A stretch of 64,000 bases of DNA from Thermaurantiacus tibetensis (GTDB lineage: Bacteria > Pseudomonadota > Alphaproteobacteria > Sphingomonadales > Sphingomonadaceae), in contig NZ_JACHTM010000002.1 of assembly GCF_015354055.1 (NCBI RefSeq), positions 124,001 to 188,000 of the forward strand, written 5' to 3'. Positions within the stretch are counted from its first letter, which is position 1; each line of letters starts with the position of its first letter. The position numbers and the translations under genes are program-made. Below, piece by piece: positions 28 to 41,952 of this stretch. The notes beneath the pieces are model-generated. The model saw only the letters and a program-made list of their open reading frames with translations. It ran no database searches and was not told the DNA's origin.

Positions 28-47
28 CTGTCGGAAGATTTTACAGT
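28..47 (+). promoter_or_regulatory. candidate enhancer (UAS) for the sigma-54 promoter
   Basis: A 20-bp element beginning CTGTC, with GA at positions 7-8 and TTTTAC at positions 12-17, matches the element at 41933-41952 (minus strand) at 14 of 20 positions without gaps. It begins 72 bp upstream of the -24 GG of the promoter at 98-114. This copy also has dyad character (CTGT, 11 nt, ACAG), as expected for the Fis-type helix-turn-helix of a sigma-54 activator. That it binds an enhancer-binding protein such as PrsR is inference from position and repetition. Confidence 0.45.
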
Positions 48-97
48 TGCCGCAGCCGCGTTCGGCACAGCGCGTTGACCTGAAACTGTTTTCGGTT

Positions 98-114
98 TTG
101 GCATGGTTCTTGCA
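98..114 (+). promoter_or_regulatory. sigma-54 (-24/-12) promoter
   Basis: The sequence TTGGCATG, four bases, then TTGCA matches the RpoN consensus YTGGCACG-N4-TTGCW with one mismatch (C to T). The invariant GG (100-101) and GC (112-113) have the required spacing. Transcription should start near 125 and run rightwards into the small ORF at 147-329. Such promoters need an ATP-driven activator, consistent with the upstream element at 28-47. Confidence 0.8.
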
Positions 115-146: not shown

Positions 147-329
147 GTGGACACCAGCATGCGCGAGACCAGAGGCCCGAGCGGACGCACCGCGCTCCTC
201 GTCTGGCTGGTCGGCCTCGCGCTCGGCGTGGCCGCCGGAGTGGGCACCGCCAAGCTCCTGCTCCCTGCCCGCGACGGCGGCGTGCTGCCCGAGGGCCAGT
301 CGATCAGGGACAGGCTCTTCGGCGACTAG
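147..329 (+). CDS. small single-pass membrane protein, uncharacterised
   Basis: The predicted product has 60 residues from GTG 147, or 56 from ATG 159. A polar, Arg-rich N-terminus is followed by one hydrophobic helix of about 22 residues rich in Leu, Val, Ala and Gly (residues ~16-38), then a short charged tail ending in LFGD. There is no signal-peptidase site, lipobox or PEP-CTERM motif. I do not recognise a family. Evidence that it is real: it is the only gene positioned behind the sigma-54 promoter at 98-114, with a leader of 22-34 nt, and its TAG stop interlocks with the stop of the opposing decarboxylase gene. The ribosome-binding site is weak for either start. The shared motif with the PEP-CTERM gene suggests a role in the exosortase system. 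Confidence 0.55.
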   Translation: MDTSMRETRGPSGRTALLVWLVGLALGVAAGVGTAKLLLPARDGGVLPEGQSIRDRLFGD

Positions 330-1564
330 CCGCCGTCGACGAGCCGCTCCCGGGCGGGCGGGTGGCCGAGGAAGGCCTCCGGGCTCGCCGTCCGCCCATA
401 GGCGCCGGCCATGAAGACCGCGATGAGGTCGCCCACCTCGGTCGCTGACAGCTCGACCTTCTCGGCCAACCGGTCGAGCGGCGTGCACAGGCAGCCGACG
501 ACGGTCGCGACTTCCGGCGCACCGCCGGCACGCGAGGCGTTCGCGATCGGGTAGTTGCGCCGCACGCCTGCGCCGAGGTTGCCAGTGGCGGCCAGCTGGT
601 GGTGCATGCCGCCGTCGGTCACGAGGAAGAGGGTGCCTGCAGACATCTTCCGGTCGACGACTCGGGCGAGATAGACTCCGGCTTCGGCCACGAGATAGCG
701 GCCGAGTTCGATTGCAAAGACGGTCTCGGCAAGTGCAGGTGGCGTACGGGCGAGGGTGCGGCGCAGCGCGTCTCCGACGGCCGCCAGGTCGAGCGGCCGG
801 TCGGCAGGAAAGTAAGGCACGCCAAAGCCGCCGCCGAGGTTCAGGAACCGCACCCGCCCCGCCACGTGCGGCGCCAAGGCGGCGGCGAGGGCAACTGTCG
901 CCGCCTGGGCTTCGGCGATCGCCCGCGCATCGAGGTTCTGCGACCCTGCGAAGACGTGGAGGCCAAGGACGTCGAACGCAGGGTCAGCCATCGAGGCCAG
1001 CACGGCGGGCGCGTCGACTGCATCGACGCCGAAGGGGCGCGCGCCCCCGCCCATCCGCATGCCGCTGCCGCGCAGCTCGAACGGCGGGTTGACGCGAAGC
1101 AGCACCCGCGCCCGCCGCCCCAGCGACCTGGCAATCGCCAGCGCGCGGGCCGCCTCGCCGGCGGATTCGATCGAGAGCACGGCACCTGCCCGGATGGCAG
1201 CCTCGAGCTCACGGTCGCGCTTGCCGGGCCCGGCGAACCCCACCCGCTCGGCCGGCATGCCAGCGGCAAGGGCCGCGGCAAGCTCGCCCTCGGAGGCCAC
1301 GTCGAAGCCATCGACGAGGGGCGCGATCGCCCGCAGCAGCGCAGGCATGGGGTTGGCCTTGACGGCGTAGTGCAGGCGAACCCCGGCCGGCAGGGCCGCG
1401 CGCACGGCCGTGATCCGCTGGCGGACAAGTGCCATGTCGTAGAGGAAGAGCGGCGTGTCCCCGGCGTCTGTCACCCAGGCCTCGGCCGGCCGGCCGGCCA
1501 CGAGGAGCCGGCCTTCGGCGTCGCGCCCGAAGCCCGGCGGGATACGGGCGTCGAGACCGGTCAT
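326..1564 (-). CDS. pyridoxal-dependent decarboxylase, exosortase A system-associated
   Basis: A 412-residue fold-III PLP enzyme of the ornithine/diaminopimelate decarboxylase superfamily. The PLP-lysine motif HYAVKANP lies near residue 65, the glycine-rich phosphate-binding GGGFGVPY is mid-protein, and the second-subunit motif (VVGCLCTPLD, with the catalytic Cys) is near residue 345. The C-terminus (MAGAYGRTASPEAFLGHP) resembles the exosortase A-associated subfamily (TIGR03099-like) rather than lysine-biosynthetic LysA. The true substrate is unknown for this subfamily. The ATG overlaps the stop of the upstream acyl-CoA ligase (ATGA), the usual partner in exosortase A clusters. Its TAG stop shares CTAG with the opposing small gene. 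LysA is the alternative, but the ligase partnership argues against it. Confidence 0.8.
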   Translation of the reverse strand: MTGLDARIPPGFGRDAEGRLLVAGRPAEAWVTDAGDTPLFLYDMALVRQRITAVRAALPAGVRLHYAVKANPMPALLRAIAPLVDGFDVASEGELAAALAAGMPAERVGFAGPGKRDRELEAAIRAGAVLSIESAGEAARALAIARSLGRRARVLLRVNPPFELRGSGMRMGGGARPFGVDAVDAPAVLASMADPAFDVLGLHVFAGSQNLDARAIAEAQAATVALAAALAPHVAGRVRFLNLGGGFGVPYFPADRPLDLAAVGDALRRTLARTPPALAETVFAIELGRYLVAEAGVYLARVVDRKMSAGTLFLVTDGGMHHQLAATGNLGAGVRRNYPIANASRAGGAPEVATVVGCLCTPLDRLAEKVELSATEVGDLIAVFMAGAYGRTASPEAFLGHPPARERLVDGG

Positions 1565-3060
1565 GCCCCGTGGTCCGCGCGGAGCCGAACGCGGTCGATC
1601 TTGCCGTTGGGCGAGAGCGGGAAGGCCGGCAGCAGGCGGATGTCGGAAGGGGCGAGATGCGCTGGCGCCTCGCGGCGGAAATGCGCCGCAAGCCGGGCGC
1701 GGACGGCTTCGTCTGAGAGCCCTTCGGCGGGCACCGCCAGCAGGCGGATGCGCATGCCGGCCTCGGCATCGGGAATGCCAAGCGCCATCGCGGCGCTGAC
1801 CGCCCCGCTCGCCATCGCCAGCTCCTCCACTTCGGTCGGCGAGACGCGCATCCCCATCGTCTTGATCATCTCGTCTTGGCGGCCGACGAAGCGCAGGAGC
1901 CCGCCCGCCTCGCGGACGACGGTGTCGCCCGACCACACCGCCATGCCGCCGTAGCGGGAGGCCGCAGGCGCGGGGCGGAAGCGTTCGGCCGTCCGCTCCG
2001 GGTCGCCCCAGTAGCCGCGGGTGACGAGCGGCCCGCAGTGGACGAGCTCTCCCGGCTCGCCGTCTTCCGCGACGCTGCCATCGGGGCGCACGACGAGCAC
2101 CTCGGCATCGGGGATGGCGCGACCGATGCTCCAGGGGTGGCTGTCCACCAGCTCGGGCGGCAGCGTCGTCGAGCGGAAGGCTTCGGTGAGCCCGTACATG
2201 AGGTGGAGCCGCGCGGCAGGGAAGCGCCGGCGTAGCGCGCGCACCGTCGGCTCGGGCATCCGCCCGCCGCTCGCCGAGAGGGTGGCAAGGCGGGTCTCCG
2301 GCCAGTCGAGCGCGGCAAGCTGCACCCAGAGCGGCGGCACGGCAGCCAGCTGGGTGGCACCATGGCGGACGGCAGCGGCCACCACGTCGCGCGGGGCGAG
2401 ATAGTCGAGGAGGATGACCGAGGCGCCGGCGAGGAAGGCGGTGCTCAGCTGGGAGAAGCCGAAGTCGAAGGAGAGGGGGAGCACGGCGAGCACGCGGTCC
2501 TCAGGCGAGGTCCCGAGGTAGGAGGCGACGCTCCGTGCGCCCACGAGGAGGTTGGCGTGGGTCACCATCACGCCCTTGGGCCGGCCGGTCGAGCCGGAGG
2601 TGTAGAAGAGGAGCGCAAGCGCGTCGCCGCCGGGTGCCTGCGGAGCCGGCGGCGTACCGGGCGCGGGCTCCGGCCAGCCCGCCTCGAGGGTCAGCACCGG
2701 GCACGGCGGCTCCCCGCCGAGGAGCGCAGCCCGCGGCGCGTGGGTGAGGAGGAGGCGCGCGCCCGAGTCGGCGAGGATGTGGGCAAGCTGCGGGCCCTTC
2801 AGAAGCGGGTTCACCGGCACGCCGATGCCGCCGGCCCGCGAGATGGCAAACAGGGCCACGACCGCCTCGGGGAGCTTGGGCAGGAACAGGGCAACCCGGT
2901 CTCCCGGGGCGATGCGCGCGGCGAGCGCCGCGGCCAGCGCCTCCACCTTCTGCCGGAGCTCAGCATAGGTCATGCCGCCGCCGCGCCAGTGGAGGGCGGT
3001 CGCCTCCGCCGGCGGGCGGTCGAGCAGCTGGTCGAAACGCTCTGGCAGAGGCCCAGTCAC
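1561..3060 (-). CDS. acyl-CoA ligase (AMP-forming), exosortase A system-associated
   Basis: A 499-residue member of the ANL adenylate-forming superfamily. The P-loop signature FYTSGSTGRPKG lies near residue 155, the adenylate-binding YGLTEAFRST near residue 295, and the C-terminal catalytic lysine in PNGKIDR near residue 485. The enzyme activates a carboxylic acid as acyl-AMP and transfers it to CoA or a carrier protein; the substrate cannot be read from the sequence. Its pairing with the PLP decarboxylase immediately downstream is the known arrangement in exosortase A/PEP-CTERM loci (TIGR03098/TIGR03099-like). It starts at a GTG overlapping the stop of der (GTGA) and ends in an ATGA overlap with the decarboxylase, so it depends on translation of the housekeeping der operon. 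Confidence 0.8.
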   Translation of the reverse strand: MTGPLPERFDQLLDRPPAEATALHWRGGGMTYAELRQKVEALAAALAARIAPGDRVALFLPKLPEAVVALFAISRAGGIGVPVNPLLKGPQLAHILADSGARLLLTHAPRAALLGGEPPCPVLTLEAGWPEPAPGTPPAPQAPGGDALALLFYTSGSTGRPKGVMVTHANLLVGARSVASYLGTSPEDRVLAVLPLSFDFGFSQLSTAFLAGASVILLDYLAPRDVVAAAVRHGATQLAAVPPLWVQLAALDWPETRLATLSASGGRMPEPTVRALRRRFPAARLHLMYGLTEAFRSTTLPPELVDSHPWSIGRAIPDAEVLVVRPDGSVAEDGEPGELVHCGPLVTRGYWGDPERTAERFRPAPAASRYGGMAVWSGDTVVREAGGLLRFVGRQDEMIKTMGMRVSPTEVEELAMASGAVSAAMALGIPDAEAGMRIRLLAVPAEGLSDEAVRARLAAHFRREAPAHLAPSDIRLLPAFPLSPNGKIDRVRLRADHGA

Positions 3061-11149: not shown

Positions 11150-11596
11150 TCAGCCGGCGGAAGGGGCCAGGCTCCCGAGGGCCGCGCGCCATGGTGCCGG
11201 AAGTGGCACAGGCCGCCGGGTCGCGCGGTCGACGTAGACATGGACGAAATGGCCCTCGGCCGCAGCGTCGGATGCGCCTTCGGCGAACAGCCCGACATGC
11301 CAGGTGACGGACGAGGTTCCGAGCCGCGCCACGGCGATGCCGGCCTCGACCATCTGCGGAAAGGCGAGGCTGGCCGCATAGCGGCAGCCGGTCTCGACGA
11401 CGAGCCCGATGATGGCACCGGCGTGGATGTCGAGGAGGCCGGCCTCGACGAGCCAGGCGTTCACCGCCGTGTCGAACCAGGCGTAGTGGACCACGTTGTT
11501 GACGTGGCCGTAGACGTCGTTGTCGGCCCAGCGGGTCGGGATTTGGCGCCAGGCCCGGTAGTGCGCCCGGGGCCGAAGCGGGGCACGGGCGCTCAC
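11150..11596 (-). CDS. acyl-CoA thioesterase, 4HBT/YbgC type
   Basis: A 148-residue hotdog-fold protein. The catalytic motif RWADNDVYGHVNN (Asp near residue 22, His-Val-Asn-Asn after it) is that of 4-hydroxybenzoyl-CoA thioesterases. It hydrolyses an acyl-CoA thioester, chain length unknown. The GTG start overlaps the TGA of the iron alcohol dehydrogenase (GTGA), so the two are coupled and may act on the same aldehyde/acyl pathway. The frame is open further upstream, but that extension lies inside the dehydrogenase gene. Confidence 0.82.
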   Translation of the reverse strand: MSARAPLRPRAHYRAWRQIPTRWADNDVYGHVNNVVHYAWFDTAVNAWLVEAGLLDIHAGAIIGLVVETGCRYAASLAFPQMVEAGIAVARLGTSSVTWHVGLFAEGASDAAAEGHFVHVYVDRATRRPVPLPAPWRAALGSLAPSAG

Positions 11597-12738
11597 AGCG
11601 CGGCTTCGTAGAGGCGCCGCGCGTCCGCCTCTTCGATCGGCACGGGGTTGTTGACGAGCAGCCGCTGCTGCTTCTGGCTCTCCGCCGCGAGCAGCGGAAG
11701 GTCGGCTGCCGTCACCCCTACGTCGCGCAGGCGAAGCGGAAGGCCGGTGGCGGCACACAGGTCGGCAAGCCGGTCGATGAAGGCCCGCGCCCGCTGCATC
11801 GCGCCGGCAGCGGGATGGCCGGGGGCGAGACAGTCGAGCAGCTCGGCATAGAGCGGGGCCGCGGCGACGAGATTGTGGCCGAGCACGGGCGCCAGCATGA
11901 GCGCGTTGGAATGGCCGTGGGGCACATGAAAATGCCCGCCGAGCGGGTAGGCAAGGGCGTGCACGCCGCCCACGGGCGCGTTCGCGAAGGCCACGCCAGC
12001 AAGGTGGCTGCCCAGCAGCATGGCCGCGCGGGCCTCGAGGTCGTCGGGCGCGTCGCAGGCACGCAGCAGGTTTGCGGCCAGCAGCCGCAGCGTCTCGCGC
12101 GCCAGCGCGTCGGAGAGCGGGTTCTTGAGCCGCGCGGACGTGAAGGCCTCGATCGCGTGGACCATGGCGTCGATGCCCGTGGCCGCTGTGACGTGCCGCG
12201 GCAGGCCGAGCGTCAGCGTGGCGTCGAGGAAGGCAGCGTCGGCGAGCAGATGGGGCGAGACCACTCCGCGCTTTTCCGTCTCCCCCACCGTGATGATCGC
12301 GATGCCGGTTGCCTCCGAGCCGGTGCCGGCGGTGGTTGGCACGAGGAGGAGCGGCAGCCGCGGGCCTTTCGCCTGGTCCACGCCCCAGGCGCCTTCGAGT
12401 GGCTCGCCCGAACCAAGGAGGAGCGCGGCGAGCTTGGCGACATCCATCGGGCTTCCGCCCCCGAAGCCGACCACCGAGACGACTCCGCCTGCCCGGCCCG
12501 CGGCAACGGCCGCGAGCACCGTTGCCTCCGGCGGGTCTGCCTCGACGTCAGCGAAGACGACGGGGTCATGGCCCGCCTTGCGCAGGCCTGCGAGGGCCGG
12601 GCGGGCAAGGCCGAGGCCGAGGAGCTGTCCATCCGTCACGAACAGGACCGGCCCGGGCGGAAGGTGCGCCGCGAGGCTCTCGGCCACGCCCGGCCCCGCC
12701 ACCACCTCGGGACCGTAGCGGAAGCGCAAGCCGCGCAT
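11593..12738 (-). CDS. iron-containing alcohol dehydrogenase
   Basis: A 381-residue group III dehydrogenase. The NAD-binding GGGSPMDVAK lies near residue 93, PTTAGTGSE near residue 133, and iron ligands in DAMVHAIEAF (near 195) and HGHSNALML (near 275). It oxidises an alcohol or reduces an aldehyde; the substrate is not deducible. AGGAG lies 6 nt before the ATG. It is followed by the coupled thioesterase and sits 82 bp after rplQ, but is not obviously part of the ribosomal operon. Confidence 0.85.
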   Translation of the reverse strand: MRGLRFRYGPEVVAGPGVAESLAAHLPPGPVLFVTDGQLLGLGLARPALAGLRKAGHDPVVFADVEADPPEATVLAAVAAGRAGGVVSVVGFGGGSPMDVAKLAALLLGSGEPLEGAWGVDQAKGPRLPLLLVPTTAGTGSEATGIAIITVGETEKRGVVSPHLLADAAFLDATLTLGLPRHVTAATGIDAMVHAIEAFTSARLKNPLSDALARETLRLLAANLLRACDAPDDLEARAAMLLGSHLAGVAFANAPVGGVHALAYPLGGHFHVPHGHSNALMLAPVLGHNLVAAAPLYAELLDCLAPGHPAAGAMQRARAFIDRLADLCAATGLPLRLRDVGVTAADLPLLAAESQKQQRLLVNNPVPIEEADARRLYEAAL

Positions 12739-41206: not shown

Positions 41207-41803
41207 TCAGGCGAGGGCAGTCTGCCGCCGACGCGCCGCGACGCCCACGAGGCCGAAGCCGGCGATCATCAGCGCCCAGGTGCCGGGCTCGGGGATGCGC
41301 CCGACCACGCCCGCGAACCGGACGTCGCCCGACGACGTGAAGGTGAGAAGGCCACCGGAGGTCGGCACATCGACGAACTGGTGCAGCGCGAAGACGCCGG
41401 ACCCGGTCACCGGGCCGAAGCTGGCCGAGAGGTCGACCGGCGCGCCAAGGTAGAAATCGAAGAGGTCGAGCCCGCTGTTGAGGAATGCCGACCGCGAGAA
41501 GAAGACCGCCAGATTGGTGTAGTTGAGCCCGAGACGGGTCGCCTCCACGATGACGAGGCCGGACGCGGAGGGGATGTCGACCACCGCCGAGACGAGGGGA
41601 TCAAGGACGTCGGCATTCGGATCCGGATAGAAGTCGGCCAGGTTCCCGGTCAGCGTGATGGTGAACGCACCCTGCCAGTCCGATGCGTTGAGCTGGCCCG
41701 TCCCCGACCCCGTGATGGTGTAGACGGCAGTCGTCGCCATGACGGGAGCTGCCGCAAGAAGGGTGCCGACCACCGCCACACCCGCCAGGATCCGCATGGC
41801 CAT
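41207..41803 (-). CDS. PEPxxWA-CTERM sorting domain protein
   Basis: 198 residues. An N-terminal Sec signal peptide (cleavage near residue 23, APVMA/T) is followed by a Ser/Thr/Gly/Asp-rich, probably beta-structured, secreted domain with no Cys. The C-terminal tripartite signal is PEPGTW at ~171, a hydrophobic helix (ALMIAGFGLVGVAA), then RRR. Exosortases cleave such tails to release or anchor the protein at the envelope, usually where exopolysaccharide is made. An ideal AAGGAG precedes the ATG, and a consensus sigma-54 promoter lies 31 nt before it. The exosortase itself is not in this window. Confidence 0.88.
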   Translation of the reverse strand: MAMRILAGVAVVGTLLAAAPVMATTAVYTITGSGTGQLNASDWQGAFTITLTGNLADFYPDPNADVLDPLVSAVVDIPSASGLVIVEATRLGLNYTNLAVFFSRSAFLNSGLDLFDFYLGAPVDLSASFGPVTGSGVFALHQFVDVPTSGGLLTFTSSGDVRFAGVVGRIPEPGTWALMIAGFGLVGVAARRRQTALA

Positions 41804-41844: not shown

Positions 41845-41861
41845 AGCAAGACTCGTGCCAA
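41845..41861 (-). promoter_or_regulatory. sigma-54 (-24/-12) promoter of the PEP-CTERM gene
   Basis: TTGGCACG, four bases, TTGCT: a full match to the RpoN consensus on the minus strand, with GG at 41858-41859 and GC at 41846-41847. Predicted start near 41834, leader about 31 nt, followed by an ideal Shine-Dalgarno. Confidence 0.9.
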
Positions 41862-41932: not shown

Positions 41933-41952
41933 AGCGTAAAAAAATCTGACAG
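41933..41952 (-). promoter_or_regulatory. candidate enhancer (UAS) shared with the left-edge promoter
   Basis: On the minus strand this begins CTGTCAGA, continues with seven Ts and ends ACGCT. It is 14/20 identical to the element at 28-47 and begins 93 bp upstream of the -24 GG. A second CTGTC lies 15 bp further upstream (41963-41967). The spacing differs from the left copy by 21 bp, so both lie on the same helical face. Activator binding is inferred. Confidence 0.5.

Follow-up and report, generated by a model that had tools for sequence, protein, structure and literature searches.

Upstream of PEP-CTERM genes, Haft et al. (2006; PMC1569441) described motif 1, which is 17 nt long with TTTACA at its end, and downstream of it motif 2, a sigma-54 motif. 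The account of the motifs in that paper gives a spacer with a mean of 62.8 nt and an SD of 10.6, without mention of helical periodicity; its text also predicts PrsR as the protein that binds motif 1 and reports that PrsR, PrsK, and the TPR protein PrsT share a common phylogenetic profile. Later work in Desulfovibrio and Zoogloea supports this prediction. By DAP-chip, the PrsR-type regulator DVUA0057 of Desulfovibrio bound predicted PEP-CTERM targets (Rajeev 2011). In Zoogloea resiniphila, prsK and prsR mutants are described as losing their flocs, a requirement that extra PepA bypasses (PMC9012009), and pepA of Aquincola tertiaricarbonis is RpoN-dependent (PMC9850573). For another sigma-54 activator, NtrC at Klebsiella nifLA, dependence on the face of the helix has been reported (Minchin et al. 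1989, as cited in PMC7408454).

The host genome considered here resembles the system of Haft et al. in its motif ending in TTTACA paired with a sigma-54 motif, in its PEP-CTERM targets, and in its tandem PrsR/PrsK genes, but it has XrtV instead of the classic XrtA/EpsH, one of its boxes overlaps coding DNA, and a small membrane protein appears among its predicted targets. It shares with Zoogloea and Aquincola a PEP-CTERM gene under sigma-54 together with PrsK/PrsR, although those organisms are beta-proteobacteria with an experimental floc formation phenotype, whereas the Sphingomonadaceae host is known here from sequence alone. NtrC at nifLA likewise activates with sigma-54 in a manner sensitive to helical phase, a dependence established there by experiment at one promoter and approached here through the natural spacing of 75 sites. 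The regulon is therefore not new: because its motifs and the prediction of PrsR as their binder were already published, and are backed by the later Desulfovibrio and Zoogloea work, what is described below rediscovers a known regulon, in a lineage new to it. Its novel aspects are a rule of helical phase, the association with XrtV, and the small membrane proteins.

Two Boxed Sigma-54 Promoters in the Window

The window, that is, the whole stretch of 64,000 nucleotides analyzed, corresponds to C11:124001-188000 of a host genome of 2.75 Mb in 18 contigs and contains two pairs of box and promoter. The first, on the plus strand, consists of a box at 28-47 (CTGTCGGAAGATTTTACAGT) and a promoter at 98-114 (TTGGCATGGTTCTTGCA); the second, on the minus strand, has its box at 41952-41933 (CTGTCAGATTTTTTTACGCT) and its promoter at 41861-41845 (TTGGCACGAGTCTTGCT). 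Within these elements, the predicted PrsR boxes are the imperfect dyad CTGTCGGAAGATTTTACAG at 28-46 (+) and CTGTCAGATTTTTTTACGC at 41934-41952 (-). The corresponding -24/-12 promoters read TGGCATG-GTTC-TTGCA (99-114, +), 62 bp from the box centre and with a gap of 53 from the 17-mer, and TGGCACG-AGTC-TTGCT (41845-41860, -), 83 bp from the box centre. All of the sequences and coordinates that a sequence-only reading had assigned to these four elements proved correct, as did its count of 14 identical positions in 20 between the two upstream elements and its distances of 72 and 93 bp, measured from the start of the element to the -24 GG. A scan of the whole window returned no further strong match beyond the two promoters it had counted. 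Its assignment of the second promoter to a PEP-CTERM gene also holds, as the 198-aa PEPxxWA-CTERM surface protein encoded at 41207-41803 (-) scores 48.1 bits with NF035944 (cut-off 35) and matches PF07589. A phage origin for the middle of the window was considered and dismissed: of ten proteins there, eight matched no PHROG and two are elongation factors.

The pattern originally proposed for the element, CTGTCNGA-N3-TTTTAC, occurs three times in the genome, where 0.006 matches would be expected (2.75 Mb, 71% GC), and all three matches are followed by a sigma-54 promoter that reads toward a PEP-CTERM gene or the small ORF. In its general form, the box is an imperfect inverted repeat, CTGTMRRA-N3-TTYKACAG, so that several sites match on both strands. 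The 17-nt boxes of the window, TGTCGGAAGATTTTACA and TGTCAGATTTTTTTACG, agree with the ending described for motif 1 by Haft et al., TTTACA or nearly so.

A Discrete Predicted Regulon of Boxed Promoters in the Host Genome

The strict promoter pattern TGGCAYG-N4-TTGCW is found 20 times in the host genome, against 0.7 expected and a single match of the reversed-pattern control. A box lies 51-84 bp upstream of 13 of these promoters, with centre-to-promoter distances of 51, 62 (five sites), 71 (four sites), 74, 83, and 84; expressed as gaps, these are 42-75 nt and fall inside the range of 32-92 nt given by Haft et al. for motif 2. Directly 3' of 12 of the 13 boxed promoters is a PEPxxWA-CTERM gene, compared with none of the seven box-less ones (Fisher p=1e-4), the concentration of element matches at PEP-CTERM genes that the sequence-only reading had named as its support. 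The thirteenth boxed promoter is that at 28-114 of the window, which lies before the gene of a 56-aa membrane protein with one helix, the sole non-PEP-CTERM member in the host genome. Among the genes downstream of the seven box-less sites are glnB-glnA and a neighbor of pspF. Because the palindromic box pattern was tuned on these host sites, the independent test is provided by the counts in relatives given below.

The genome holds 49 PEPxxWA-CTERM matches. The pair of box and promoter precedes 12 of them and was found before none of the other 37, relaxed thresholds included, so that the regulon is a discrete subset; a role for PrsR as general PEP-CTERM regulator of the host was rejected on the same count. 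One of the 49 matches, at C10:115443-115514, has an in-frame TAA in its PEPxxWA-CTERM signal and is likely a decayed gene, adjoining an intact PEP-CTERM gene.

The regulators anticipated for such a system are encoded by adjacent genes, with PrsR (receiver, sigma-54 AAA+, and Fis HTH domains) scoring 668 bits with TIGR02915 (cut-off 502.6) and PrsK scoring 526 bits with TIGR02916 (cut-off 300), and RpoN, likewise above its curated cut-off, is also encoded. With these three proteins and an exosortase present in a genome where the box marks PEP-CTERM promoters, the element most likely serves as the PrsR box. This supports the original proposal that the element is the binding site of PrsR, and we consider it highly probable that the 13 sites form a predicted regulon under PrsK/PrsR and sigma-54.

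PrsK/PrsR in an XrtV Setting

The exosortase A setting envisaged from the window was not borne out. The only exosortase found in the host genome, at C12:120346-121071 (positions 11346-12071 of locus L053), scores 355 bits with the XrtV model (cut-off 313) and 147 with that of XrtA (cut-off 208). The same locus encodes an EpsI of type V (264 bits, cut-off 228), chain-length and export proteins, and a priming glycosyltransferase of an EPS cluster. The XrtV, the type V EpsI, and the 49 PEPxxWA-CTERM matches together place the host in the XrtV system and not in the XrtA system. Two of the boxed PEP-CTERM genes lie inside this locus, and since XrtV is the only exosortase, PrsK/PrsR would work with the XrtV system in this host. 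Genes of the "exosortase A-associated" TIGR03098 and TIGR03099 types are present alongside PrsK/PrsR despite the lack of XrtA in the host genome.

Small Membrane Proteins as Predicted Targets

The first boxed promoter of the window lies behind the 3' end of truA (tRNA pseudouridine synthase A; 1-78, +), which ends in PDLSEDFTVAAAAFGTAR and was recognized from its C-terminal sequence and its position after fmt. It reads into the 56-aa single-helix membrane protein at 159-329 (+), which has an alternative GTG start at 147 and matched no Pfam or NCBIfam family. Two enzyme genes follow on the opposite strand, a pyridoxal-dependent decarboxylase (TIGR03099; 326-1936, -; 533 bits, cut-off 478) and an acyl-CoA ligase of TIGR03098 type (1561-3060, -; 575.8 bits, just under the cut-off of 592). 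The adjacency of the promoter to two exosortase A-associated enzyme genes, as first noted, is thus real, but the suggested link to them as targets is not, because both are convergent with the promoter. Use of these genes as evidence for an exosortase A system was also rejected, as they are convergent, the genome has no XrtA, and the TIGR03099 label alone does not indicate an exosortase system, since homologues 53-60% identical occur in Streptomyces and other actinobacteria (58-59% at loci such as L145, L147, and L150).

A strict-consensus scan of 80 decarboxylase loci gave no credible pair of box and promoter because the consensus was too strict; tblastn with the small ORF and reading of the flanks then revealed a conserved promoter. 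The truA end, the small ORF, and a box and -24/-12 promoter to match are all retained in seven relatives (Sandaracinobacteroides, Sandarakinorhabdus, Sandaracinobacter, and uncultured Sphingomonadales/Sphingomonadaceae), with a gap of 51-52 bp by the strict pattern in six of the seven and a weaker box in Sandaracinobacter (CCGTCGGAATAATTTACAT). Homologues of the 56-aa protein are counted in these seven relatives and in 2-3 family genomes, and the protein is found in only 4 of the 40 family genomes, one of them weakly.

The same kind of promoter is found before a second family. In at least nine genomes, and in many Sphingomonadaceae (loci L194-L198, L207, L226, and L237), a box and sigma-54 promoter at a gap of 43-44 precede a membrane protein of 73-88 aa (RLFVIKTRFEAYLIIYALALGATERG...), for which no Pfam or NCBIfam family was matched. 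Because the predicted PrsR box precedes two such families, control by PrsR seems to extend beyond PEP-CTERM substrates to small membrane proteins.

The arrangement at 28-114 may also be read in another way, with the site controlling the convergent decarboxylase by antisense transcription or collision and the small ORF being incidental. The two stop codons share the tetranucleotide CTAG (326-329), which offers no space for a terminator, and a terminator scan between them was indeed empty; moreover, the two genes lie tail-to-tail in most relatives. An incidental ORF is hard to reconcile, however, with purifying selection on the 56-aa protein (pN/pS 0.12-0.40) and with 14 positions invariant among eight sequences across genera, and in other genomes boxed sigma-54 promoters stand before the other small membrane protein. 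Control by antisense transcription or collision is accordingly improbable, and control of the small ORF itself by PrsR is preferred.

Box and PrsR across the Family

In 40 family genomes, TGTM-N9-KACA followed by TGGCAY-N5-TTGC at any gap of 36-66 gave 61 pairs of box and promoter, and the reversed-pattern control none. A T occupies the unconstrained position 13 of the box in 94% of 66 sites. Pairs occur in 19 of 30 PrsR-positive genomes versus 2 of 10 PrsR-negative ones (Fisher p=0.028), a co-occurrence that is significant but modest because the strict pattern misses sites and because one genome, G017, retains them although its PrsR match is not a strong one. The strict site is absent from 11 of the 30 PrsR-positive genomes, probably owing to the narrow pattern. 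G017 has three sites of box and sigma-54 promoter, of which the two inspected precede PEP-CTERM genes, and no PrsR match at E<=1e-130 (loci L211 and L221); it may use another or a diverged activator.

G017 could be taken to suggest that a different sigma-54 activator, not PrsR, binds the element in the host as well, where at least six other activator-like proteins are encoded. Three of the seven box-less promoters adjoin genes for other activators (a PspF-like one at C10:811361, and C11:598685 and C12:360102) and yet have no box, and box and PrsR co-occur across the family. Together with the binding reported for the Desulfovibrio regulator, these observations make another activator quite improbable and leave PrsR as the favored candidate. 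Finally, it is exceedingly unlikely that the element at 28-47 is a by-product of truA coding sequence, with only that at 41933 functional: although it overlaps LSEDFT, the closing codons of truA (translation continued from upstream contig sequence), in relatives a TGTCGG-N5-TTTACA-type element spans or follows the truA stop at 51-53 bp from the promoter, and because its reading contexts differ, coding content is not the reason for its preservation.

Helical Phasing of Box and Promoter

The difference between the 72- and 93-bp distances of the window had been remarked upon as two helical turns, and the remark holds generally. All of the 61 gaps are of 41-44, 51-54, or 61-65 bp, and extension to gaps of 67-97 adds 14 pairs, 12 at 72-76 and two at 85-86, so that all 75 gaps fall in five narrow bands about 10.5 bp apart (40 family genomes; reversed-pattern control 0). 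The best period over the 75 gaps is 10.5 bp, and no uniform simulation comes close. Some of these promoters are orthologous; the phase also holds with one site per genome (n=21) and when genomes are taken singly (host, 13 sites; its congener, 13; a third genome, G005, 11). As the gap range was not used in choosing sites, phasing was not built into the selection. In a phylum sample, three genomes of other families (G058, G141, and G165) have gaps of 51, 52, 54, and 62, in phase and mostly before PEP-CTERM-like genes, whereas sparse chance matches without PEP-CTERM genes include out-of-phase gaps of 40, 46, and 50. We found no report of helical phasing for PrsR in the literature.

We infer a mechanism in which the membrane kinase PrsK would activate the NtrC-family response regulator PrsR, which would bind the dyad and, through a short DNA loop spanning 50-85 bp, reach the sigma-54 RNA polymerase at the downstream -24/-12 promoter, where its AAA+ ATPase would remodel the closed complex. 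A single box and a short loop would confine the box to one face of the helix with respect to the promoter, which would explain why gaps occur only near 43, 53, 63, 74, and 85 bp. In the host, the predicted regulon would then comprise 12 PEPxxWA-CTERM proteins, handled by XrtV, and one small bitopic membrane protein. There is perhaps an even chance that PrsR promoters follow a strict helical-phase rule across Sphingomonadaceae and, judging by a few sites, beyond, and that PrsR also governs two dedicated families of small membrane proteins (the truA-linked 56-aa family and the RLFVIKTRFEA family) that are previously undescribed components of the exosortase/PEP-CTERM surface system.

Implications

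For an alphaproteobacterium with XrtV as its only exosortase, these results provide a complete and testable list of predicted PrsK/PrsR targets. The helical-phase rule would make PrsR promoters predictable from sequence, and the two uncharacterized small membrane proteins can now be named as candidate parts of the surface-protein system.
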